From: Labrys wisconsinensis
GTDB lineage: Bacteria > Pseudomonadota > Alphaproteobacteria > Rhizobiales > Labraceae
Reading direction: 5' to 3'
DNA length: 64,000 bases
NCBI RefSeq assembly: GCF_030814995.1
Contig: NZ_JAUSVX010000017.1
Location: 62,001 to 126,000, forward strand
Below are positions 10,593-35,929 of this stretch, one piece after another (the stretch's first letter is position 1; each line of letters starts with the position of its first letter). Under the pieces are notes generated by a model. That model was not told where the DNA came from, ran no database searches, and saw only the letters and a program-made list of their open reading frames with translations. Made by a program: the position numbers and the translations under genes.

Positions 10593-11228
10593 TCACGCCC
10601 CGGCCTGCGCCTCGCCGGAATGGGCGTACTCGCTGGGCAAGGCCCGCGGCAGGCCGCGGTTCGCCCCAAGGCCGTGCAGCGCCAGGCTGACGATGGCCAT
10701 GGCCATGGTGGCGTCGCTGAAACGCTCCAGGCCGATGCCGCTGCGCACCATCGCCATCATGAAATGGGCGGCGAGACCGGCGTCGAAGGGCTGGGCCTCG
10801 CCGCGGGCCTGCGCTTCCTCGATCACCGCACGCAACCGGGTCTCCAGATGGCCCCGGCGCTGGCGGAACAGGCGGCGCCGCGAGGTCTCGGGCTCGTCGA
10901 CCGTCCGGATCGCGGCGAAATGGGTGCGGAAGGTCGGCACCATCTCGCCGATCAGGCGGATGAGCCTCTGCTCGAAGGTGCCGGGCAGAAGCAGGGCTTC
11001 GTCGAGGCGCTTTTCCAGATCATCCAGCGCCTCGCTGATCACGGCCGCGAAGAGATCCTCCTTGCCGGCGAAGTAGCGATAGACCGTCGGCTTGCCGATG
11101 CCCGCCTCGAAGGCAATATCCTCCATCGAGGCCGCCGCATAACCTTGCCGCGCGAAGATCCGGCCCGCTGCATGCAGCAGGTTGTTCCGGCGGACGTCAC
11201 GCCATCTTTCCCTCGAAAGGTTTTCCAA
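10593..11228 (-). CDS. TetR/AcrR family transcriptional regulator, probable repressor of the efflux operon
   Basis: 211 aa from a TTG start. The N-terminal HTH reads LLHAAGRIFARQGYAAASME then DIAFEAGIGKPTVYRYF and KEDLFAAVI, the classic TetR signature. The C-terminal half is the ligand domain. TTG at 11228 is preferred because GAGG precedes it by 7 bases and the frame leaves a perfect palindromic operator 35 bp upstream. A GTG at 11258 would nearly touch the operator and lacks an RBS. It lies directly upstream of the RND adaptor and permease on the same strand, the common arrangement for a local repressor. Confidence 0.88.
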   Translation of the reverse strand: MENLSRERWRDVRRNNLLHAAGRIFARQGYAAASMEDIAFEAGIGKPTVYRYFAGKEDLFAAVISEALDDLEKRLDEALLLPGTFEQRLIRLIGEMVPTFRTHFAAIRTVDEPETSRRRLFRQRRGHLETRLRAVIEEAQARGEAQPFDAGLAAHFMMAMVRSGIGLERFSDATMAMAIVSLALHGLGANRGLPRALPSEYAHSGEAQAGA

Positions 11229-11262
11229 AGTCCGGCCTCGAAGCAGAGCGTCGACCACGAAT

Positions 11263-11278
11263 GAAACTCGCGAGTTTC
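11263..11278. promoter_or_regulatory. Perfect 16-bp palindrome, candidate TetR operator
   Basis: GAAACTCGCGAGTTTC is a perfect palindrome 35 bp upstream of the chosen tetR start. Size and symmetry match TetR-family operators. A weaker related element, GAAATATTGCATAGTTTC (10506-10523), sits in the gap before the efflux genes, but with two extra central bases. Confidence 0.6.
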
Positions 11279-11525
11279 GTCTTGAGCCGAGATTGTGATG
11301 GAAATATGCGCGTCCGCCTCTGCCGGCGGACGGAGCGGGGCCTGTGTCAAGCACATCCCCGTGAGAAATATTTCCACATTGTATCGCCGATTTGCCCGGC
11401 GTGTTGCATTGCACAAATTCGAGGCGATCAGACGCCTGCCGGTCGCCTCCGGGCGGGGCGGGCGCGGGCGCCTGCGTCTGCGGACGAGGCTCTTTGTCGC
11501 AGGGCGCGCTCGTGTGCCGTCGGGC

Positions 11526-12278
11526 TCACTCGCGCGGCAGCACGCCGACGATCGGGCCGAGCGGCCGCAGGCTGTCGGTGCGCCCGAGGGTGGGGGCGTA
11601 GAGGGCGGAGATGCTGCCGTCGAGGAACAGGGCGTCGGGGCAGTGCAGGGCGTCGCGGAAGAGATGCGCGAACTCGCCGAAGGTGACCGGCTCCTCGGAG
11701 ATGGCGAAGACGGCGGTGCCCCTGTCCTGCACGCCGACGCCGTTGCGCATCTTGGCGGAGGTGCCGCTCTCGGAGATCTTGGGATGGAGGCGGCCGGCGA
11801 TCACCAGCATCGGGCCGGACTGGGTGGCGAGCTCCGGGCGGAAGCCGGGCTGGGCGCGCAGCCTGAGATAGCGCCCGGTCTCGACGATGGCGGCGCCGTC
11901 CTTGTCGACATAGAAGATGCCGTTCGGCTTCATGTGGAAATTGCCGGGGCCGTTGGCGGTGTTGACGCGCACCCATTCGCGGCCGTTCTCGACATAGAGG
12001 CCGGCGGGCGACAGGTCCGGGCGGTACATGCCGGCATTCATGGCGAAGGTCAGGCGGCCGCCCTCGGGCATCTCGCGTAGCCGGGCGAAGGAGCCGAGCG
12101 CCTCGCCGTCGGCGCCCTTCCAGAACAGGCGGATGGTGTCGTGCCTGAGGTCCGCGGTGCAGACGGTGAAGGCCTTGCCGCCATAGGTGAGGGCGCGGCA
12201 CGGCCCGTCCTCGGCCGCCACCGGCGCGGCGAGCAGGGCGAGGGCCGCCAGAGCGAGGAGGCTGCGCCGGAGAGGCAT
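11526..12278 (-). CDS. Phosphodiester glycosidase (NAGPA/DUF2233) family exported protein
   Basis: 250 aa with a clear Sec signal peptide (MPLRRSLLALAALALLAAPVAA). The mature part carries family signatures: FAMNAGMYRPDLSPAGLYVE, then GNFHMKPNGIFYV, LATQSGPMLVIAGRLHP, KMRNGVGVQDRGTAVFAIS, and a C-terminal ALFLDGSISALY. These belong to the NAGPA-like domain that in known members hydrolyses phosphodiester-linked glycosides. The bacterial substrate is unknown; a periplasmic or envelope glycan target is plausible. Start at 12278 is set by the signal peptide; a longer ORF begins upstream. The 297-bp gap toward tetR holds the palindromic operator and an AT-rich stretch with GAAATATTTC at 11365-11374. 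Confidence 0.85.
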   Translation of the reverse strand: MPLRRSLLALAALALLAAPVAAEDGPCRALTYGGKAFTVCTADLRHDTIRLFWKGADGEALGSFARLREMPEGGRLTFAMNAGMYRPDLSPAGLYVENGREWVRVNTANGPGNFHMKPNGIFYVDKDGAAIVETGRYLRLRAQPGFRPELATQSGPMLVIAGRLHPKISESGTSAKMRNGVGVQDRGTAVFAISEEPVTFGEFAHLFRDALHCPDALFLDGSISALYAPTLGRTDSLRPLGPIVGVLPRE

Positions 12279-24572: not shown

Positions 24573-24684
24573 GCTTAAGGCAGCCATGCCGACAAACCGG
24601 TTTCAAGCCGTCGGCGCGCGGATTATACGGCATGCGCGAAAGCCGGCCCCCATTCGATCGGGCCGGCGGGATCGGAGCCAGGGC

Positions 24685-25320
24685 ATGAGCGGCTACGCCG
24701 TGAAGGAGATCTTCCTGACGCTGCAGGGCGAGGGCGCGCAGGCCGGCCGTGCCGCCGTGTTCTGCCGCTTCGCCGGCTGCAACCTCTGGTCCGGCCGCGA
24801 GGCGGACCGGGCGGGCGCGCAGTGCCGCTTCTGCGACACCGATTTCGTCGGCATGGACGGCACCCGGGGCGGGCGCTACCCCGACGCGGAGGCGCTCGCC
24901 GCCACCCTGGCGGCGGAATGGGGACCGGGGCGGGAGGAGCGCTTCTGCGTCCTCACCGGTGGGGAGCCGCTCCTGCAGCTCGATGCGGCGCTGGTGGCGG
25001 CGCTGCACCGCGAGGGCTTCGAGATCGCGGTCGAGACCAACGGCACGCTCGAGCCGCCGGCCGGGCTGGACTGGGTCTGCGTCAGCCCGAAGGGCAGCAC
25101 GGAGCTGGCGATCCGCGGCGGCCACGAGCTCAAGCTGGTCTATCCCCAGGCCGAGGCGCCGCCCGAGCGCTATGCCGGCCTGCCCTTCGAGCGCTTCTCG
25201 CTGCAGCCGATGGACGGGCCCGACGTCGCGGCGAACACCGAGCGCGCCATCGCCTATTGCCTCGCCCATCCGCAATGGCGGCTGAGCCTCCAGACCCATA
25301 AATGGACCGGAATCCGATGA
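24685..25320 (+). CDS. queE: 7-carboxy-7-deazaguanine synthase QueE
   Basis: 211 aa radical-SAM enzyme converting carboxytetrahydropterin to CDG in preQ0/queuosine synthesis. The cluster-binding Cys are in CRFAGCNLW and CRFCDTDF, with a longer first spacing as in the extended-loop QueE subtype. LTGGEPLLQ and ETNGTLEPP follow. Start MSGYAVKEIF at 24685 is the family N-terminus (KEIFLTLQGEG). Its stop overlaps queD (ATGA). Confidence 0.95.
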   Translation: MSGYAVKEIFLTLQGEGAQAGRAAVFCRFAGCNLWSGREADRAGAQCRFCDTDFVGMDGTRGGRYPDAEALAATLAAEWGPGREERFCVLTGGEPLLQLDAALVAALHREGFEIAVETNGTLEPPAGLDWVCVSPKGSTELAIRGGHELKLVYPQAEAPPERYAGLPFERFSLQPMDGPDVAANTERAIAYCLAHPQWRLSLQTHKWTGIR

Positions 25321-25673
25321 AGATCACCCAGGCCTTCACCTTCGAGGCCGCGCATTGGCTGCCGCACGTGCCGGAAAGCCACCGCTGCCGCCGCATGCAC
25401 GGCCATTCCTACCGGGTCGAGCTGCGCCTGGAAGGCGCGGTCGACCCGCATACCGGCTTCGTCGCCGATTTCTTCGACGTGGAGGCGGCGTTCGGGCCGC
25501 TGCTGGCGCGGCTCGACCATTATTGCCTGAACGAGGTCGAGGGGCTCGAAAATCCCACCGCCGAGAATATCGCGATCTGGATCTGGGACCGGACCAAGCC
25601 GCTGATGCCGCAGCTCGCCGCGGTGACCGTCTACGAGACGCCGCAATCCTGGGCGGACTATGAGGGGCGCTGA
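25317..25673 (+). CDS. queD: 6-carboxytetrahydropterin synthase QueD
   Basis: 118 aa. Zinc and catalytic residues: [20 protein letters not shown] (Cys plus HGH), [22 protein letters not shown], and [13 protein letters not shown] with the catalytic Glu near the C-terminus (TVYETPQS). It makes CPH4 from dihydroneopterin triphosphate. Overlaps queE by 4 bp. Confidence 0.95.
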
Positions 25674-25704
25674 GGTGTCGCGACCGGCTGGGGGAGGAGA
25701 GGGC

Positions 25705-26409
25705 ATGGACGAAGGCGCGCTCGTGCTGTTTTCCGGCGGCCAGGATTCGAGCACGTGCCTGGCCTGGGCGCTCGATCGGTTCGCAACCGTCGAGACCGTC
25801 GGCTTCGACTACGGCCAGCGCCATCGCATCGAGCTCGACTGCCGCGCGCGGCTGCGCGAGGCGATGGCGGCGATGCAGCCGGACTGGGCGGCTCGGCTCG
25901 GCCCGGACCACACCGTGCCCCTCGCGGCGCTCGGCGAGATCTCCGCGACGGCGCTGACCCGCGAGGTCGCCATCGCCATGGACGAGGGCGGCCTGCCCAA
26001 CACCTTCGTGCCCGGCCGCAACCTCGTCTTCCTCACCTTCGCGGCGGCGCTCGCCTATCGCCGAGGGCTGCGGCACATCGTCGGGGGCATGTGCGAGACG
26101 GACTATTCCGGCTATCCCGACTGCCGCGACGATACGATCAAGGCGCTGCAGGTCGCGCTCAACCTCGGCATGGCGCGCCGCTTCGTCCTGCACACGCCGC
26201 TGATGTGGATCGACAAGCGCCAGACCTGGGCCCTGGCCGAGGCGATCGGCGGGCAGCCGCTGGTCGACCTCATCGTCGAGGACAGCCATACCTGCTATCT
26301 CGGCGAGCGCGGGCGACGCCACGATTGGGGCCATGGCTGCGGCACCTGCCCGGCCTGCGAGCTGCGCGCGCGGGGCTGGCGCGAGTATCGGGCCGACGCT
26401 GCGACGTAG
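25705..26409 (+). CDS. queC: 7-cyano-7-deazaguanine synthase QueC
   Basis: 234 aa ATP-dependent enzyme forming preQ0 from CDG. PP-loop [16 protein letters not shown] at residue 7, [27 protein letters not shown], and the zinc site CYLGERG...CGTCPAC near the C-terminus. Start MDEGALVL at 25705 follows GGGAGGAGAGGGC. The queE-queD-queC order gives all post-GTP-cyclohydrolase steps to preQ0; queF is not in the window. Confidence 0.95.
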
Positions 26410-27039: not shown

Positions 27040-27588
27040 ATGCAGGCTGTCACGATCCGCCGTCTCGTCGTTGCCGACGCAGAGGATTTCCGCGCCATCC
27101 GCCTCGCTGCCTTGCTGACGGCTCCGGAGGCGTTCGGGTCCGTCCATGCGCTCGAGGTGGAGCGGCCGCTCGCCGCCTTTGCCGAGCGGCTCGCGACCTC
27201 GGCCGTGCTCGGCGCCTATGACGGCGGGCGCATCGGCGGCATGGCCGGCTTCTGGCGTGCCAACGGGCCGAAGGACAGCCACAAGGGCTTCGTCTTCGGC
27301 ATGTTCGTTGCGCCCGAACTGCGCGGCCGCGGTGTCGGCGCGGCTCTGATCGCGGCCGTCATCGCCGCTGCCCGGGGCGAGGTCGAGCAGCTGCACCTGG
27401 CCGTGCTCCGGAGCAACGCCGCGGCGATCGCCCTCTATCGGGCCGCGGGCTTCGCGGTCTACGGCATCGAGCCGCGGGCTCTGAAGGACGCCTCGGGCTA
27501 TGCGGACGAGCTCTTGATGGTGCGCATCCTGCAGCCTGGCGTGGAGACGCCGGGGGACATCGTCGATCCCTCCAATTCCAGGACCTAG
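27040..27588 (+). CDS. GNAT family N-acetyltransferase
   Basis: 182 aa. GNAT core: VTIRRLVVADAEDFRAIRL, acetyl-CoA site FVAPELRGRGVGAALIAAV, and AVLRSNAAAIALYRAAGFAV. Substrate unknown; RimI/PhnO-like proteins share this layout. It follows the toxin gene by 10 bp and may be co-transcribed with the TA pair. Its 3' end overlaps the converging metallophosphoesterase by 4 bp. Confidence 0.88.
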   Translation: MQAVTIRRLVVADAEDFRAIRLAALLTAPEAFGSVHALEVERPLAAFAERLATSAVLGAYDGGRIGGMAGFWRANGPKDSHKGFVFGMFVAPELRGRGVGAALIAAVIAAARGEVEQLHLAVLRSNAAAIALYRAAGFAVYGIEPRALKDASGYADELLMVRILQPGVETPGDIVDPSNSRT

Positions 27589-28490
27589 CTCAACCGCTGG
27601 CGGCGCAGCTCCTCCGGCGGGTGGCCCGCGGCCACGAAGCCGCGCACGGTGAGGCCGATGTGCCAGGCGCCGGCCTCGCCGCTGATCGAGAACAGGTTGT
27701 AGGAGGCCGGCCAGCGCGCCCGCTCGGGCGCGGCCGAGGCCGAGGGCGTGCACACCACCGGGATCGGTCCGCTCGGGCCGTTGGCGCGGTGCACGCGGCC
27801 GGTGTGGATATGGCCGTGCAGCACGAGCTCGGCCCCGGTCTCGCGCAGCACCGCGGCGAGGCGGTCGGCGTCCATCAGCATGGCGGTCGGGCCGGCATCC
27901 TGGCGGCGAACGGGGTGGTGCAGCATCACCACGCGGCAATAGCCCTCGTGGCCCAAGTGCTCCAGCGCATCGCGCAGGCGCGAGATCTGCCTGAGGCCGA
28001 GCTTGCCGGTCGCCATGAACGGCGCCGTCGGCACGGCGGTCGACAGGCCGATCAGCGCGATCCTGCCGCGGATGCGCACATAGGGAAAGCGCTCGGCCTC
28101 GTCGAGGGGATGGGCGCCGCTGTTGTCGCCGCGCATCCAGGGATCGAAGGCCGAGAGCAGCCGCACCGCGCCGCCCTTGGTGTAGGCGTCGTGGTTGCCG
28201 GGCACCAGCGACAGGTGGTCGGGCGCGCCGACCCGCTCGAGGAACAGGCGGGCCGCCGGAAACTCGCCGGGCAGGGCGAGATTGACCACGTCGCCGGTCA
28301 GGGCGATGTGGTCCGGCTTCTGGGCGTGCAGGTCGACGAGGAGCTGCTCCAGCACGTCCATGCGATGGACGTCGCGCCGGCCGCGGTTCCAGTTGAGCCA
28401 GCCCAGCACCCGCTTGCCCGCGAGCTCGCGCACCATGGCGCGGGGCAGGGGGCCGATATGCGGGTCGGAGAAATGTGCGAGCGTGAACAT
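27585..28490 (-). CDS. Calcineurin-like metallophosphoesterase
   Basis: 301 aa. All metal motifs of the fold are present: HFSDPHIG, ALTGDVVN, LVPGNHDAY, MLHHPV and LHGHIHTGR. Close in layout to CpdA-type phosphodiesterases; substrate not assigned. Family-typical start MFTLAHFSDPH. No signal peptide, so cytoplasmic. Confidence 0.9.
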   Translation of the reverse strand: MFTLAHFSDPHIGPLPRAMVRELAGKRVLGWLNWNRGRRDVHRMDVLEQLLVDLHAQKPDHIALTGDVVNLALPGEFPAARLFLERVGAPDHLSLVPGNHDAYTKGGAVRLLSAFDPWMRGDNSGAHPLDEAERFPYVRIRGRIALIGLSTAVPTAPFMATGKLGLRQISRLRDALEHLGHEGYCRVVMLHHPVRRQDAGPTAMLMDADRLAAVLRETGAELVLHGHIHTGRVHRANGPSGPIPVVCTPSASAAPERARWPASYNLFSISGEAGAWHIGLTVRGFVAAGHPPEELRRQRLS

Positions 28491-28576: not shown

Positions 28577-30619
28577 TCAATCCCCGCCTGCCTCCAGCCA
28601 GCGCACCTCGTCCGGCGTCAGGGCGATGTCGAGGGCTGCGATGCTGCTGTCGAGCTCGGCGAGGGTGCGCGGGCCGATCAGCGGCACCACCGGGAAGGGC
28701 TGGTGCAGGACATAGGCGAGGGCCACGTGGATCGGATCCTTGCCGAGCCTGCGGGCGAGCGCCACGGCGCGGTCGCGGCGGGCGAAATTTTCCTCGCTGT
28801 ACCAGACGCGGACCATCTCGGCATCCCCGCGCCCGTCGCGGCCGGCGCGCTCGGTGAAGAAGCCGCGCGCCTGGCTCGACCAGGCGAAGTTCGGGATCTG
28901 GCGCGCCTTGAACCAGGCCTTCCAGGCTTCGTCCGAGGAGGAGACGCAGCCGGCCCAGATCACGTCCTGCATCTGCGCCAGGGCGAAATTGTTCGACAGG
29001 GCGCCGGGCCTTTGCCGCCCGGCGCGCTCGGCATAGGCGATGGCCTCGTCCATGCGCTCGCGCGTCCAGTTGGAGCCGCCGAAGAGGCCGCGGATGCGGC
29101 CGGCCCGCACCTCGGCGTCCATCGCGTCGACGAATTCGCCGACCGGCACGTCCGGATTGTCGCGGTGCATGAAATAGACGTCGACATGGTCGGTCTTGAG
29201 CCGCTCCAGGGTCTGGGCGAGCTGGCGGCCGATCACCTCGGGATAGCACAGCGGCGTATGCGCGCCCTTGCCGATCACCACGGCCTCCTCGCGCACGCCG
29301 CGGCTGGCGAGCCATTCGCCGAGCAGCGTCTCGGTATAGCCGGAGGCATAGATCCAGCCGGTGTCGAACAGGTTGCCGCCCGCCTCGAAGAAGGCGTCGA
29401 GCAGGATTGCGCCGGAGGAGAAGCTGCGGAAATCCTCAAAGCCCAGCGCGACGACCGAGGCTTCGCGCGCCAGCCCGGCGAGGCGCCGCCTGGGGATGGC
29501 GCCGCCGCGCTTCAGCGGTGCGCCGGAGATGGTGGCGGTGCGGCGGGAGGCCTTCTCGATGTCGTATTCGAGGCCGGCCGCGGCGCGCCAGCGGTCGAGG
29601 ACACGCAGATTGCCGAGCGTGTCGGCCCAGCTCATGCCGGGCGCGGCGAGCTCCTGCGCCCCGGCGCGGATCGCCTCGGCCGCGGCGTCGGCCTCGAAGG
29701 CATAGAGCCAGCCGGGCTCGTCGACCTCGACCGTGCGGGCGCCACCGTCCCGGCCGACGATGTCGATGCGCCCGACGCCGCCCTGCTTGCCGCCGGCGAA
29801 CCAGAAGTCCCTGACCTCGATCCGCCCCTCGGTGCCGAAGATGCGCAGCACGTTGTCCTGGGCGAGCGAGATCGAGCAGGACACGTCGGCGATGATCCCG
29901 CCGGGGAAGGTCAGGACCGCCGAGGCCCATTCGTCGACGCCGGAACGGCCGAGACGGGCGGCGCCGGCAACCGCGACGGGATCGAGGAAGGGCCGGCCCG
30001 TGGCTGCGCCGGCGATCAGCCGCGCCATCGACACGGGATAGCCGCCGACGTCGAGGATGCCGCCGCCGGCGAGGTCGTTGGCATAGAGGCGGTGCTCCGG
30101 CGCGAAGGACGGCATGGCGAAGCCGAAGCTGGAGCGGATCAGGCGGACCTCGCCGACGGCGCCGGCGCGGACGAGCTCGACCAGCCGAGCCGTCTGCGGA
30201 TGGCTGCGATACATGAAGGCCTCGGCCATGAAGGTGCCGGCCTTGCGCGCTGCGTGGAACATGGCGTCGGCCTCGAAGGCGGTGAGGCCGAGCGGCTTTT
30301 CCACCAGGACGTGCTTGCCCGCCTCGGCCGCCCGGATGGCCCAGGGCGCGTGGAAGGGATGGGGCGTGGCGACATAGACGGCCTCGACCTCCGGATCGGC
30401 CAGCAGGGCCTCGTAGCCGGCCAGGATGCGGGCGCCGGGAAAATCCGCGGCGAGTCCGGCCTTGCCGGGGTCGCGGGTGGCGATGGCGACCAGCCTGCCG
30501 GTCCGCGAATGGGCGAGGCCGCCGGCAAAGGCCTTGGCGATGCCGCCGGGGCCGATGATGCCCCAGCGCAGGATGTCTTGGGTCACGGCGATGTCCTCTT
30601 CAAAGACCGGTTCTTTCAT
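28577..30619 (-). CDS. Fusion protein: Gfo/Idh/MocA oxidoreductase + aldo/keto reductase
   Basis: 680 aa with two full enzyme domains in one frame. Residues about 15-350 are a Gfo/Idh/MocA dehydrogenase: Rossmann WGIIGPGGIAKAFAGGLAHS, EKPLG motif (HVLVEKPLGLTAFEAD), AEAFMYRSHPQ, and LAGGGILDVGGYPVSMARL. After a short basic linker (AIPRRRLAGLAREAS), residues about 370-680 are an AKR barrel: NLFDTGWIYASGYTETLLGE, VVIGKGAHT, DVDVYFMHRDN-type His (HVDVYFMHRDNPDV) and PLIGPRTLAELDSS. Both domains use NAD(P), suggesting paired oxidation and reduction of one sugar. It lies 10 bp past the CUT1 ATPase in the transporter operon. Confidence 0.92.
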   Translation of the reverse strand: MKEPVFEEDIAVTQDILRWGIIGPGGIAKAFAGGLAHSRTGRLVAIATRDPGKAGLAADFPGARILAGYEALLADPEVEAVYVATPHPFHAPWAIRAAEAGKHVLVEKPLGLTAFEADAMFHAARKAGTFMAEAFMYRSHPQTARLVELVRAGAVGEVRLIRSSFGFAMPSFAPEHRLYANDLAGGGILDVGGYPVSMARLIAGAATGRPFLDPVAVAGAARLGRSGVDEWASAVLTFPGGIIADVSCSISLAQDNVLRIFGTEGRIEVRDFWFAGGKQGGVGRIDIVGRDGGARTVEVDEPGWLYAFEADAAAEAIRAGAQELAAPGMSWADTLGNLRVLDRWRAAAGLEYDIEKASRRTATISGAPLKRGGAIPRRRLAGLAREASVVALGFEDFRSFSSGAILLDAFFEAGGNLFDTGWIYASGYTETLLGEWLASRGVREEAVVIGKGAHTPLCYPEVIGRQLAQTLERLKTDHVDVYFMHRDNPDVPVGEFVDAMDAEVRAGRIRGLFGGSNWTRERMDEAIAYAERAGRQRPGALSNNFALAQMQDVIWAGCVSSSDEAWKAWFKARQIPNFAWSSQARGFFTERAGRDGRGDAEMVRVWYSEENFARRDRAVALARRLGKDPIHVALAYVLHQPFPVVPLIGPRTLAELDSSIAALDIALTPDEVRWLEAGGD

Positions 30620-30629
30620 GGCGCTGCGA

Positions 30630-31715
30630 TCAGCGCAGGCGTTGGCCCGCGCCGTCGAACAGCAGGGCGACGTCGGCGGGGATGGCGACGGTGAGGCTGT
30701 CGGCGCCGCCGCTGCGGCGCTGCTCGTCGCGCTCGACGACGATCTGCTCGCCGGCGGCGCTGGCGTAGACGTAGCTGGTGGAGCCGAGATGCTCGACCAC
30801 GTCGATCCCGAGCGTGAGATCGGCCGCTCCCTGGCCGGGCGCGGCGAAATGCTCGGGGCGGATGCCGAGGCTCAGGCGGCTGCCGCGCTCGGGCGGCGGG
30901 CCGGCCAGCGCCTTGGTCAGGCGCAGGCCGGCATGGTTGACGAGGGCGAGCGTCACCGTGCCCGCACCGGCGTCCACCACCTCGGCGGCGAGGAAGTTCA
31001 TCTTCGGCGAGCCGACGAAGCCGGCGACGAAGCGGTTGGCCGGGTCGTCGTAGAGCTCGAGGGGGCGGCCGATCTGCTCGACATGGCCGTCCCGGAGCAC
31101 GACGATGCGGTCGGCGAGGGTCATCGCCTCGGTCTGGTCGTGGGTGACGTAGATCATGGTGGTGCCGAGCTCCTTGTGGAGCCGGGAGAGCTCGACGCGC
31201 ATCTGCACGCGCAGCTCGGTGTCGAGGTTGGAGAGCGGCTCGTCGAACAGGAACACGTCGGGCTCGCGCACGATGGCCCGGCCGATGGCGACGCGCTGGC
31301 GCTGGCCGCCGGAGAGCTGGCGCGGCCGGCGCTGCATCAGGTCGGCGATGCGCAGGATCCCGGCGGCGCGCCGCACCCGCCGCTCGGTGTCGGCCTTGGG
31401 GTTGCCGGTCATGCGCAGGCCGAAGGAGAGGTTCTGCTCGACCGTCATGTGGGGGTAGAGCGCGTAGGACTGGAACACCATGGCGACGCCGCGCTCGCTG
31501 GGCTCGACATCGTTGACCACCCGGCCGCCGATGGCGATCTCGCCGCCGGAGACGTCCTCAAGCCCGGCGATCATGCGCAGCAGCGTGGACTTGCCGCAGC
31601 CCGAAGGCCCGACGAACACCACGAACTCGCCGTCCTCCACCGCCAGGCTGGCGCCGTGGATGGTCTCGAAGGCGCCGTAGCGCTTGACCACCTTGCTGAG
31701 CGAGACCCCTGCCAT
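30630..31715 (-). CDS. Sugar ABC transporter ATPase (CUT1, UgpC/MsmK-like)
   Basis: 361 aa. Walker [24 protein letters not shown], signature [20 protein letters not shown], Walker [13 protein letters not shown], switch THDQTEAM, then the regulatory C-terminal TOBE/OB domain ([17 protein letters not shown]). ATPases of this type can serve several CUT1 importers. ATG at 31715 gives the standard N-terminus ([11 protein letters not shown]). Confidence 0.94.
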
Positions 31716-31726
31716 GCCCCGCGCTC

Positions 31727-32569
31727 CTATTTCACGGCGCCGGCGGCGATGCCGGCGACGAAATGGCGCTGCAGAGCCACGAAGACCACCAGCATCGGCG
31801 CGGTGAGCATCACCGCCCCCGCCATGATGCCGCCCCAGGAGACCTTGGTGAGGCCGACCAGGCCGCCCAGCGCCACCGGGGCCGTGAACATCTCGCGATT
31901 GGTGCTGATCAGCAGCGGCCAGAGGTAGTTGTTCCAGGAAGCCAGGAACAGGATGATCGAGAGCGCCGCCAGGGCCGGCCGGGCGAGCGGCAGGGCGATG
32001 AAGAGATAGATCCGCCATTCCCTCACGCCCTCGACGCGGGCGGCGTCGAAGAGGTCGGCGGGCATCATCGCGAAGGCCTGGCGCATGAACAGGACGCCGA
32101 GCGAGTTGAACAGCGGCGGCACGACCAGGCCGATCCAGCTGTTGCCGAGCCTGAAGTCGCGCACCACCATGATGAATTGCGGGATGACCACCACGAAATA
32201 GGGCAGGGTGATGGTGCCGAGGATGATGCCGATCACCAACGGCTTGCCGACGAAGTGGTAGCGGGCCAGCGCCCAGCCGGCCATGGAGGTCAGGACCACG
32301 GAGAGCAGCGTGTAGATCGTCGCCACCGCGATGGAGAGCCCCAGGGCGCGGACGAAGTCGGTGTCGTGCTGCAGATTCTCGACGTTGGCAAGGAACTGGT
32401 CGGAGGGCATGAGCTGCAGGCCCGGGCCGAACAGGCCGGTGTCGGGCAGTGTCGCGGTGACGAACATCATCCACAGGGGGAACAGCCAGATCAGCGCCAG
32501 CGGCGCCAGGACGGCGTGCAGGGCGATCGAGCGGAGCCGCGCCGCGGCGGCCTTGCTGCGCGCGGTCAT
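31727..32569 (-). CDS. Sugar ABC transporter permease (CUT1, MalG-like)
   Basis: 280 aa, six membrane segments, start [19 protein letters not shown]. The EAA loop reads [24 protein letters not shown] overlap with the upstream permease. Forms the heterodimeric channel with that protein. Confidence 0.93.
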
Positions 32570-33426
32570 TGCGGCTCGCGCCCCAGGCGCATGTTGAGAA
32601 GCGAGATCAGGGCGGCGAGCCCCGCCATGGTGTAGGCGATGGCCGAGGCATAGCCGAAGTTCAGCGAGGTGAAGCCCTGGCGGTAGAGGAACAGGCCGAG
32701 CGTCTCGGTGCCGCCGCCCGGCCCGCCGCGATTGGTGATGAGGAAGGGCTCGGCGAAGAGCTGCATGGTGCCGATCACCGACAGCACGATGCAGAAGACG
32801 ATGATCGGGCGCAGCAGCGGCAGGGTGATGTGGAGGAACTGCCGGAGCTTCGACACCCGGTCGAGCGTCGCCGCCTCGTAGACGTCCTCCGGGATCGCCT
32901 GCAGCCCGGCCAGGATCAGGATGGCGTTGTAGCCGGCCCAGCGCCAGGTGACGGCGATGATCAGGAGCGTCATGGCCCAGGGCGTCTCGGAGAACCAGGC
33001 GATCGCGGGCAGGCCGACGAGGCCGAGCAGCTTGTTGATGACGCCGAACTCGACGTTGAACATCAGCCGGAACAGGGCGGAATAGGCGACCTCGCCGACC
33101 ACGACGGGGGCGAAGAAGGCGAAGCGGAACAGGCCCCGCGCCTTCAGCATCGGCGAGTTCAGCAGCACCGCCATGACGGTCGCCAGCGCGATCATGACAG
33201 GCACCTGGATCACGAGGATCAGCAGCGTGTTCTTCAGGGCGTTGTAGAAGGCGGGGTCGTGGACGAGCCGGCCCCAGTTGAACAGGGGATCGACTTTCCA
33301 CGGCGTGCTGCGGGTGTTCTGGAACGAGATCAGCAGCGAGTTGACGACCGGCCAGATCCAGAAGGCGGCGAACACCAGGAGATAGGGCGCGAGGAAGCCG
33401 TAGGCACTCCGGTTGCGCAGGCGCAT
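32566..33426 (-). CDS. Sugar ABC transporter permease (CUT1, MalF-like)
   Basis: 286 aa, six membrane segments beginning [23 protein letters not shown] loop [36 protein letters not shown] is typical of MalF-like permeases. ATG at 33426 removes an upstream extension that runs through the hairpin-rich gap after the binding-protein gene. Confidence 0.93.
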
Positions 33427-33577: not shown

Positions 33578-34864
33578 TCACGGAGCGACGGGCAGGCCGG
33601 TGGCGGCGGCGATCTGGTTGGCGGCGTCGTCGAGCGCGGCCTTGGCGTCGGGATAGCTTCCGGCCAGGAACTTGGTCTGGACCGCGCGGACGACGCTCTC
33701 GGCGTCGTTCTGGAACTGCGTGCCGTGGGTCGGATGGATCTTGGGGAGCGTCGCCAGGATGTCGGTCCAGATCTTCTGGCCGCCCCAGTAGGGTTGCGGC
33801 TGGGAGACAAAGGGGTCTTCCAGCGCGCTGAGCAGGGAGGGCACCAGGCCATAGGCCTTGAGCATGGTCACCTGGCCTTCATTGGTGGCGAGCGTGTATT
33901 TCACATAGGCGTAGGCGGCTTCCTTGCTCTTGGAGCTGGCCGAGATGGCGAGCGAGGAGCCGCCGATATTGGCCGCGCGTGCGCCGTCGGCGGTCACGCC
34001 CGGCATGGGATAGACGCCCCATTGGCCCGCCAGCTTCGGCGCGTTGGTGCGGATCGTGCCCTCGTACCAGCCGCCATACATCTGGGTGGCGACGGTGCCG
34101 GCGCCGTTGGCCGCCACCTTCTCGTCCCAGTTGGCGGGGGCGAGCAGGCCGGCATCCTTCATCTTCCTGATCGCGGCGAGGGCGGCGACGCAGCCGGGCT
34201 GGGCGACGGCGACCGCCTTGCCGTCGGCGGAGAAATAGCCGCAGCCCTGCTCGTTGGCGATCATCCGGAAGAATTCGCTGTCGCCGTTGAAATTGGCCTC
34301 GCTCATGACCACGCCGGGATTGGCCGCCTGGATCTTCTTGCCGGCGGCGATGAAGTCGTCCCAGGTCTTGATCGAGGCCGGGTCGACGCCGGCCTTCTCA
34401 TAGAAGTCGCGGCGATAGAACATCATCACCGGCCCGGAATCCCAGGGCATGGCGTAGACCTTGCCGTCGTGCTCGAGCTCGGCGCGCTTGAAGTCGGGGA
34501 ACCTGGCCGCGTCCTCGGCGCCGTAGCCGAGGGTCTTGAGGTCGGCGAAGCAGTCGGGGAACTGGGTCCAGTAGCTCTCGGCCTTGTAGTTCTCGATCGA
34601 GATGATGTCGGGCAGGCCCTCGCCGCCGGCGGCGCAGGCGGCGATCGACTTGTCGTAGACCGGCTGGTTGCCGATATCCTCGACGGTGACCTTCACGTCG
34701 GGGTAGAGCTTGTTGAAGCCTTCGACGGTCGCCTTGAGCGAGGAGGCGGCGATGTCCCAGCTCCAGATGGTGATGCTGCCCGAGGGCTGCGCCGTCGCGG
34801 TGCCCGCGGCGGCCAACAGGGCAGCAGCGGCGCACAGGCTCGTGTGGCGTAGCGCGATACGCAT
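33578..34864 (-). CDS. Extracellular sugar-binding protein (CUT1 ABC importer)
   Basis: 428 aa with signal peptide (ALRHTSLCAAAALLAAAGTA, cleavage near ATAQPSG). Family-1 binding protein features: SITIWSWDIAASSLKATVEG, FNKLYPDVKVTVEDI, MPWDSGPVMMFYRRDFYEKA, and GGSSLAISASSKSKEAAYAY. First gene of the transporter-fusion-enzyme operon, with the AraC regulator divergent. Ligand unknown. Confidence 0.93.
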   Translation of the reverse strand: MRIALRHTSLCAAAALLAAAGTATAQPSGSITIWSWDIAASSLKATVEGFNKLYPDVKVTVEDIGNQPVYDKSIAACAAGGEGLPDIISIENYKAESYWTQFPDCFADLKTLGYGAEDAARFPDFKRAELEHDGKVYAMPWDSGPVMMFYRRDFYEKAGVDPASIKTWDDFIAAGKKIQAANPGVVMSEANFNGDSEFFRMIANEQGCGYFSADGKAVAVAQPGCVAALAAIRKMKDAGLLAPANWDEKVAANGAGTVATQMYGGWYEGTIRTNAPKLAGQWGVYPMPGVTADGARAANIGGSSLAISASSKSKEAAYAYVKYTLATNEGQVTMLKAYGLVPSLLSALEDPFVSQPQPYWGGQKIWTDILATLPKIHPTHGTQFQNDAESVVRAVQTKFLAGSYPDAKAALDDAANQIAAATGLPVAP

Positions 34865-34951: not shown

Positions 34952-35929
34952 ATGAATTCGGCGGAAAGTAAGGTGGCCGGCAGGCCGGTCTACCAGCCCG
35001 GCGAAGGCGGCGTCGAAGGACGGCCGACCCGGCTGCAGATGTTCCATGCGGTGCCGCTGGTCATGGCCAAGCCGCATTGGCACGCCCAGGTGGAGGTCAA
35101 CTTCATCGCCCGCGGCGCCGTGCACTACCGCATGCACACCCATGAGATCAGCCTCGGCACCGGACAGATCTGCCTGTTCTGGGGCGGGCTGCCGCACCAG
35201 ATGGACGACCTCACCGACGATGCCATCTACGCCGGCGCGCATCTGCCGCTGATCCATTTCTTCCGCCTGAAGCTGCCCGAGGCGGTGCCGCGCCGGCTGA
35301 TGCAGGGGGCGACGCTGGTGACCGGCAGCACGGATGCCTCGGACCAGCACAATTTCGAGCGCTGGAACCGCTATGCCCGCTCCGGCGATCCGGTGAAGGC
35401 GCAGCACGCGGTCGACGAGCTCCTGCTGCGGCTGGAGCGGGTGCGCTTCGAGCCCTACGACCTGGTGCCGGCGCAGCCCCGGTCGGCGCCGTGCGAGGAG
35501 GGCGACCAGCAGTCGACCCGCAAGGTCGGGCGGATGTGCGACTACATCGCCGACAACTTCCTCAACGACATCGATTCGATCGACATCGCCGGGGCGGCGG
35601 AGCTGCATCCCAAATATGCGATGGCCATCTTCAAGCGCGCGACGCGCATGACCATCAATGAATATGTCAGCCTGCTGCGGCTGAGCTATGCGCAGGCGCT
35701 GCTGCTGCGCGACGATGCCAATGTGCTGCGCGTCGCCATGGAGAGCGGCTTCGGCTCGCTCAGCGCCTTCAACAAGCTGTTCCGCAAGGTGGCCGGCATG
35801 TCGCCGTCGGATTTCCGCCGCGATGCCGACAGCCTGCCGCAGCCGCGCCGCGGCCGGCGCCCCCCGGCGCGGTCCGGGCTGGCGGCCGGGCCGGGCGCGG
35901 CGCTGCCGAGCTGGCCTCCGAACTCATGA
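34952..35929 (+). CDS. AraC family regulator with N-terminal cupin domain
   Basis: 325 aa. N-terminal cupin sensor (HWHAQVEVNFIARGAVHYRM; ICLFWGGLPHQM). C-terminal double HTH: ADNFLNDIDSIDIAGAAELH, TRMTINEYVSLLRLSYAQAL and MESGFGSLSAFNKLFRKVAG. The tail after residue 295 is Pro/Arg-rich and may be frame run-on. Divergent from the CUT1 sugar operon with an 87-bp gap, so it is the likely activator of that operon (inference). Confidence 0.92.
   Translation: MNSAESKVAGRPVYQPGEGGVEGRPTRLQMFHAVPLVMAKPHWHAQVEVNFIARGAVHYRMHTHEISLGTGQICLFWGGLPHQMDDLTDDAIYAGAHLPLIHFFRLKLPEAVPRRLMQGATLVTGSTDASDQHNFERWNRYARSGDPVKAQHAVDELLLRLERVRFEPYDLVPAQPRSAPCEEGDQQSTRKVGRMCDYIADNFLNDIDSIDIAGAAELHPKYAMAIFKRATRMTINEYVSLLRLSYAQALLLRDDANVLRVAMESGFGSLSAFNKLFRKVAGMSPSDFRRDADSLPQPRRGRRPPARSGLAAGPGAALPSWPPNS

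Follow-up and report, generated by a model that had tools for sequence, protein, structure and literature searches.

A Gfo/Idh/MocA–aldo/keto reductase fusion encoded in a sugar transport operon of Labrys wisconsinensis: a possible coupled NADP(H)-linked dehydrogenase-reductase

Introduction

Why would a bacterium keep two complete oxidoreductases of unrelated families on one polypeptide chain, at the end of a sugar transport operon? The question is raised by a gene of Labrys wisconsinensis (genome size 8.9 Mb) located in the 64,000-nucleotide stretch of contig NZ_JAUSVX010000017.1 analysed here, which we refer to as the window. The first half of the encoded protein belongs to the Gfo/Idh/MocA family and the second half to the aldo/keto reductases (AKRs). 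Both enzyme families are thoroughly known, and the fused gene is already present in public records, mostly under one-half names. The records listed call it "aldo/keto reductase", "Gfo/Idh/MocA family oxidoreductase" or "probable oxidoreductase protein"; these names cover one half or neither, and at least one half is therefore hidden.

Redox-neutral use of two sugars is known from the glucose–fructose oxidoreductase of Zymomonas and the aldose–aldose oxidoreductase of Caulobacter, in which one active site performs both half-reactions; tightly bound, non-released NADP(H) is a mark of the glucose–fructose oxidoreductase type. Both enzymes adopt the Gfo/Idh/MocA fold, like the first domain of the fusion, whereas the fusion has a second, unrelated active site, that of the AKR.

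Results

The fused gene and its start codon

The frame is open on the minus strand from 30619 to 28577 and encodes 680 residues from the ATG at 30619, which bears out the first-pass annotation, where an uninterrupted 680-codon frame had been described without its strand. The start of the gene is likely the GTG at 30586 rather than this ATG, because an AGAGGA-like site, resembling a ribosome-binding site, is located just upstream of the GTG, the start positions of annotated relatives align with it, and residues 1–13 of the AlphaFold model of the 680-residue version have pLDDT values below 50. The gene and its regions are as follows.

28577..30619, minus strand: fused gene, longest open reading frame, ATG at 30619, 680 residues
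28577..30586, minus strand: fused gene from its probable true start, GTG at 30586, 669 residues
29816..30571, minus strand: Gfo/Idh/MocA domain (Pfam residues 17–268; the structural match extends to about residue 350)
29456..29575, minus strand: variable basic linker, about residues 349–388
28592..29404, minus strand: aldo/keto reductase domain (Pfam residues 406–676)

On the strand opposite the fused gene, a frame of 663 residues (28703–30694, plus strand) is open, probably as a product of G+C-rich codon bias; the antisense strand is also open in some relatives (L016, L023).

Domain organization and conserved residues

Three Pfam domains were recognized along the chain.

Residues 17–130: GFO_IDH_MocA, E 1.2e-22
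Residues 145–268: GFO_IDH_MocA_C3, E 2.8e-19
Residues 406–676: Aldo_ket_red, E 3.3e-42

The Rossmann domain and the C-terminal domain of the Gfo/Idh/MocA half both exceed their Pfam cut-offs, and the Aldo_ket_red match, with 145 bits where 24 are required, spans profile positions 24–287 of 291, in keeping with an AKR-type barrel of about 300 residues. Among NCBIfam models, inositol 2-dehydrogenase (TIGR04380) scored 83.7 bits against a cut-off of 355 and D-xylose 1-dehydrogenase Gfo6 scored 83.8 bits against 350, so that neither assignment was reached.

The linker of the window copy, at about residues 349–388, contains nine Lys or Arg residues and four Asp or Glu residues, in agreement with its earlier description as basic. 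The median identity to the window is 50% in the linker and 71.5% and 75.3% in the two halves (111 rows, the window's own copy included), and the ten most distant rows retain 35–50% identity in the first half, 46–55% in the second half and 16–34% in the linker. Judged from the alignment, both halves appear constrained, and the linker much less so.

The putative catalytic residues of the Gfo/Idh/MocA half (K108, D190 and Y194) are unchanged across all 112 aligned rows, which represent 111 distinct fused sequences with the window counted twice, many of them close kin. The same holds for the complete EKP motif (E107, K108 and P109) and for D419, Y424, K451 and H485, the putative catalytic tetrad of the AKR half. 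We take the EKP lysine and the downstream Asp and Tyr to be the catalytic residues of the Gfo/Idh/MocA family, and the four residues of the second half to be the Asp-Tyr-Lys-His tetrad of aldo/keto reductases. The check on both active sites that had been proposed with the first-pass annotation thus found all seven putative catalytic residues unchanged, and these residues, together with the Pfam matches, uphold its description of two complete enzyme domains on one chain.

Individual residues also suggest the cofactor. Arg49 is matched by an arginine in KijD10 and in dihydrodiol dehydrogenase, which are presumably both NADP-dependent enzymes, and the GPRT motif of the AKR half is common to the deoxynivalenol (DON) 3-epimerase chain and to AKRtyl, an enzyme solved with NADPH. 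Because of the Arg49 match and the shared GPRT motif, NADP(H) is suggested as the cofactor of both domains. R651, in the AKR half, is kept in 110 of the 112 rows.

Distribution and conservation of the fusion

Both halves were found in one frame in 144 of 191 fetched loci, which yield 111 distinct sequences, the window's own among them. Loci were counted as fused when both halves scored above the limit within one stop-to-stop frame; the single frame is thus a definition, and the order of the domains is a result. The Gfo/Idh/MocA half precedes the AKR half in all 144 loci, and the order first noted in the window therefore recurs throughout the fused set. The rest of the fetched loci comprise 7 with neither half and 40 with one half only or with the halves apart, the latter including G542 (three copies), G603 (four pieces at contig ends) and relatives with a single half that were obtained as outgroups or through searches with one half.

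In a larger scan, the best 80 of 531 confirmed relatives are all full-length fusions (80/80), hosted by Mesorhizobium, Kaistia, Devosia, Pelagibacterium, Phyllobacterium, Rhizobium, Agrobacterium and Labrys. The fused gene is present at 74–76% identity in three of the four other genomes of the window's family and at E ≤ 1e-90 in 12 of 398 genomes from the phylum (the window's own included), and in 197 plasmid records at least 80% of the gene is found in a single place.

The fusion is not a sequencing artefact, since relatives carry both halves in one frame. A frameshift or missed stop near 29,500–29,560, the weak point named at the outset, is ruled out: the frames of relatives continue through this region (144 of 191 loci; 80 of 80). 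Two stops flagged in individual copies were set aside; that of the G004 copy is its own terminal stop and not an interruption, and the TGA of the G111 copy, which falls at codon 667 of the 668 codons matched, is read as a terminal stop.

With a limit of E ≤ 1e-40, the AKR half has matches in 12 of the 398 phylum genomes, all in open frames of at least 678 residues. At E ≤ 1e-70, matches occur in 10 of 289 genomes of the class, the window's included: eight in frames of at least 665 residues, one split (G542) and one at a contig end (G603), with the other listed matches among the 289 genomes at 6e-31 or weaker. Plasmid AKRs of Deinococcus and Enterococcus are 35% and 37% identical to the AKR half, and no Gfo gene accompanies them in the annotated stretches listed, whose gene tables are incomplete.

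Predicted structure and nearest known enzymes

The AlphaFold model of the whole chain has a pLDDT of 87.5 and a pTM of 0.89. The high pTM suggests that the arrangement of the domains is defined in the model. The AKR half modelled alone has a pLDDT of 80.1 and a pTM of 0.81, with its residues 42–50 (the Asp419–Tyr424 region) below a pLDDT of 50.

The nearest structural homologues of the first domain are dihydrodiol dehydrogenase (2o48; Z 41.1, rmsd 2.0, 317 residues aligned) and the 3-ketoreductase KijD10 (Z 39.7); aldose–aldose oxidoreductase scores Z 37.0. KijD10 and dimeric dihydrodiol dehydrogenase are among the best matches of this domain in both sequence and fold, and their chains, of 350 and 334 residues respectively, are without a fused AKR. 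The closest fold to the AKR half is that of DepB (Z 28.9, rmsd 2.7, 283 residues aligned, 23% identity in the structural alignment), with near-ties within one Z unit in the deoxynivalenol AKR 7utf (Z 28.7) and Tas (Z 28.3). The search with the whole chain was filled with first-domain matches and says little on solved two-domain structures. No solved chain among the sequence matches listed (60 of 136 and 60 of 173) spans both halves; the longest has 433 residues, so that none of them could cover both.

Two of these neighbours belong to systems in which an oxidation is paired with a reduction. As described in an excerpt of PMC10301637, DepA and DepB carry out the 3-epimerisation of deoxynivalenol as two enzymes, the first oxidising and DepB reducing. 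Unlike the halves of the fusion, DepA and DepB are separate proteins, and DepA is a PQQ dehydrogenase, not a member of the Gfo/Idh/MocA family. An excerpt of PMC11239390 describes DgpA, a Gfo/Idh/MocA enzyme that oxidises C3 of glycosides and regenerates its NAD+ through the reduction of 3-oxo-glucose in a ping-pong manner. DgpA shares the fold of the first domain, with 24% identity in the structural alignment (7xr9); at 367 residues, its chain has no fused AKR, in contrast to the fusion.

Gene context in the window

The fused gene is the last in a minus-strand run of binding protein, permease 1, permease 2, ATPase and fusion, and the earlier placement of the gene inside a sugar ABC operon is thereby confirmed.

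30630..31715, minus strand: UgpC/MalK-type ABC ATPase gene, from family profile matches
31727..32569, minus strand: carbohydrate ABC permease gene 2, named from annotated orthologues
32566..33426, minus strand: carbohydrate ABC permease gene 1, named from annotated orthologues, with a 4-base overlap with permease gene 2
33578..34864, minus strand: sugar-binding protein gene (SBP_bac_1, Pfam)
34952..35929, plus strand: divergent AraC-type regulator gene, best NCBIfam match MelR (167.9 against 253 bits, below the cut-off)

The binding protein points to no particular substrate, as its NCBIfam matches are far below the cut-off and its best solved relatives (6q5g and 6h0h) are sugar binders without a named ligand.

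On the 3' side of the fused gene, a calcineurin-like phosphoesterase gene (27585–28490, minus strand) follows on the same strand after a gap of 86 bases, and its end overlaps a convergent GNAT gene. Genes resembling QueE and QueC of 7-deazaguanine synthesis, named by eye from sequence, are found a few kilobases away (24586–26409, plus strand).

Gene context in relatives

The set of AraC-type regulator, binding protein, two permeases and ATPase, recognized by similarity to the window's genes, accompanies the fusion in 69 of the 80 best loci, and an AraC-type regulator is near it in 72 of the 80. Three of the 11 loci lacking the full operon have short 5' flanks, and at least five of the 11 contain less similar ABC genes. 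A second lineage with a ROK regulator comprises Rhizobium tumorigenes, Sinorhizobium sp. C101 and S. meliloti pSymA (gene tables incomplete); R. tumorigenes and Sinorhizobium sp. C101 have an ABC set beside the fusion, and R. tumorigenes has a GH42 beta-galactosidase among the neighbours.

The family scan of neighbours excludes G506, G601, G508, G481 and G642, as well as the outer flanks at the 69 loci with the standard operon. A gene annotated as alpha-glucosidase/alpha-galactosidase is nearby in Phyllobacterium A18/5-2, and G624 has GH3, a gene of the ROK family, and one additional AKR and one additional Gfo gene nearby. In G354, the neighbours of the fusion include two additional Gfo genes, a pair of genes resembling xylose isomerase and a gene for a binding protein, along with glycine-dehydrogenase-like and NAD-kinase-like genes. 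Inositol-type genes in Devosia were considered as a substrate clue and discarded; they are at least 3.6 kb away with other genes between, and thus give no strong indication.

Non-sugar contexts also occur, in two distant members. Sinorhizobium BG8 has ETF-QO and another ABC transporter beside the fusion, and G325 has allantoin/oxamate-type genes around it. The sugar context of the fusion is therefore usual, not universal. The fusion occurs with a helix-turn-helix/AraC-type regulator but without transporter genes in M. atlanticum (L072) and, by annotation, in S. medicae pSymA (L192), so that the core unit may consist of the regulator and the enzyme.

Two further observations concern single loci. 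The fused relative of G325 (L125, 4186–12983) is flanked by AllG/AllH-like, isochorismatase and amidase genes; a setting of nitrogen-compound genes was unexpected. In S. meliloti ml66 pSymA (L107), a gene annotated as aminoglycoside nucleotidyltransferase ANT9 (11149–11925) is found just 3' of the fusion.

A split pair and the origin of the fusion

In G542, a low-G+C genome of the window's class, the halves are two genes in the same order whose stop and start codons overlap in ATGA, and the split halves keep the motifs EKP, DVGxY, FDTxxxY, GKGAH and HRD. Their neighbourhood includes genes for a binding protein and a LacI regulator, another Gfo gene, a gene resembling TIM-barrel isomerases and one for a class II aldolase, as well as further ABC genes recognized by eye. 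Both domain trees place the respective G542 half as sister to the fused protein of G325, with supports of 99 and 100; these are quick trees with open deep forks, in which G542 was flagged for odd composition and, in the first-domain tree, G325 for a long branch.

The simplest reading is that the G542 pair arose by fission of a fused ancestor. Two separate fusions may instead account for the pattern, and the trees do not separate this alternative from one fusion with later fission in G542. Because of the split pair and of the same sister relation in both trees, the two activities likely serve one shared pathway. They travel together under fission as under two fusions, and this is thus the best evidence here for a single pathway.

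Discussion

We propose that the fusion is a bifunctional NADP(H)-linked dehydrogenase-reductase of sugar catabolism, coupled on one protein, a proposal to which we give an even chance. Most likely, the Gfo domain oxidises, the AKR domain reduces, and NADP(H) is recycled on the same protein. The Gfo/Idh/MocA domain, through Lys108, Asp190 and Tyr194, would abstract a hydride from a hydroxyl on the ring of a sugar that is either imported or released by a glycosidase, and the AKR domain, through Asp419, Tyr424, Lys451 and His485, would give a hydride back to a ketone. The cofactor pair would be recycled on one protein, resulting in a redox-neutral couple. The net outcome would be the inversion of one carbon (epimerisation via a keto-sugar), conceivable by analogy with DepA and DepB, or the turnover of a 3-keto-sugar intermediate, by analogy with DgpA. 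We infer the direction of each half, the shared cofactor pool, the identity of the sugar and the net reaction. The glycosidase genes of R. tumorigenes (GH42), Phyllobacterium (alpha-glucosidase/alpha-galactosidase) and G624 (GH3), and the Gfo and xylose isomerase-like genes of G354, argue for a sugar role; the non-sugar neighbours in G325 and Sinorhizobium BG8 argue against a pure one. A fusion may also be of use for co-expression or stability, with no redox coupling involved.

The two outcomes of the coupled dehydrogenase-reductase can each be taken further. It is possible, if doubtful, that the fusion is a self-contained redox epimerase in which two unrelated NADP(H) sites of opposite facial selectivity act on one and the same sugar carbon; the keto-sugar would pass between the sites and the cofactor would be reused, a design that differs both from one-site epimerases and from glucose–fructose oxidoreductase. 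The second outcome, taken alone, would make the fusion a helper of a glycoside 3-keto pathway and not an epimerase, which we regard as rather unlikely. The Gfo domain would oxidise glycoside C3, cleavage by elimination would follow, and the AKR would reduce the released 3-keto-sugar to an ordinary sugar, so that the process would be redox-neutral overall, but on two different molecules. The C3 oxidation by DgpA, with NAD+ regained from 3-oxo-glucose (excerpt of PMC11239390), provides a precedent, and further Gfo and TIM-barrel isomerase-like genes are present in the G354 and G542 clusters; against this, no candidate cleaving enzyme is found among the genes read in the window operon.

Redox coupling is itself dispensed with if both domains work sequentially in the same direction, as two reductases or two dehydrogenases drawing on the cell's NADP(H), for example in the reduction of a dicarbonyl or keto-aldose, with the fusion providing only co-expression. 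Most AKRs reduce in vivo, and KijD10 and 1,5-anhydrofructose reductase, fold neighbours of the first domain, are named as reductases. This alone would not account for the retention of a Gfo and an AKR domain on a single chain; in our judgement, redox coupling is simpler, and a same-direction pair is improbable. The non-sugar neighbours in G325 and BG8, and the regulator-only contexts of L072 and, by annotation, S. medicae, would also suit a carbonyl-detoxifying or broad-range fusion without a fixed sugar substrate, whose position in the operon is a regional coincidence. Such an enzyme is very improbable, as the same sugar operon is kept in 69 of 80 loci and the fusion of a second lineage is accompanied by another set of sugar ABC genes, to which R. 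tumorigenes adds GH42.

The first-pass annotation knew of no characterised enzyme with this domain order, and no described enzyme with the Gfo/Idh/MocA–AKR architecture was found in open-licence PMC text, with several of the queries narrow. A search of the same text with guessed S. meliloti locus tags found nothing. In an excerpt of PMC5118466, R. leguminosarum pRL90280 is a "conserved hypothetical protein"; this tag, too, was guessed and is not mapped to the fused gene. The fusion is widespread and conserved in soil and plant-associated bacteria, and apparently uncharacterised. If the coupling by the proposed dehydrogenase-reductase is real, the fusion would let root-associated bacteria form rare sugar epimers, or turn over 3-keto-sugars, by a compact and cofactor-neutral route, would be a ready biocatalyst, and would give a function to a gene carried on many rhizobial plasmids.
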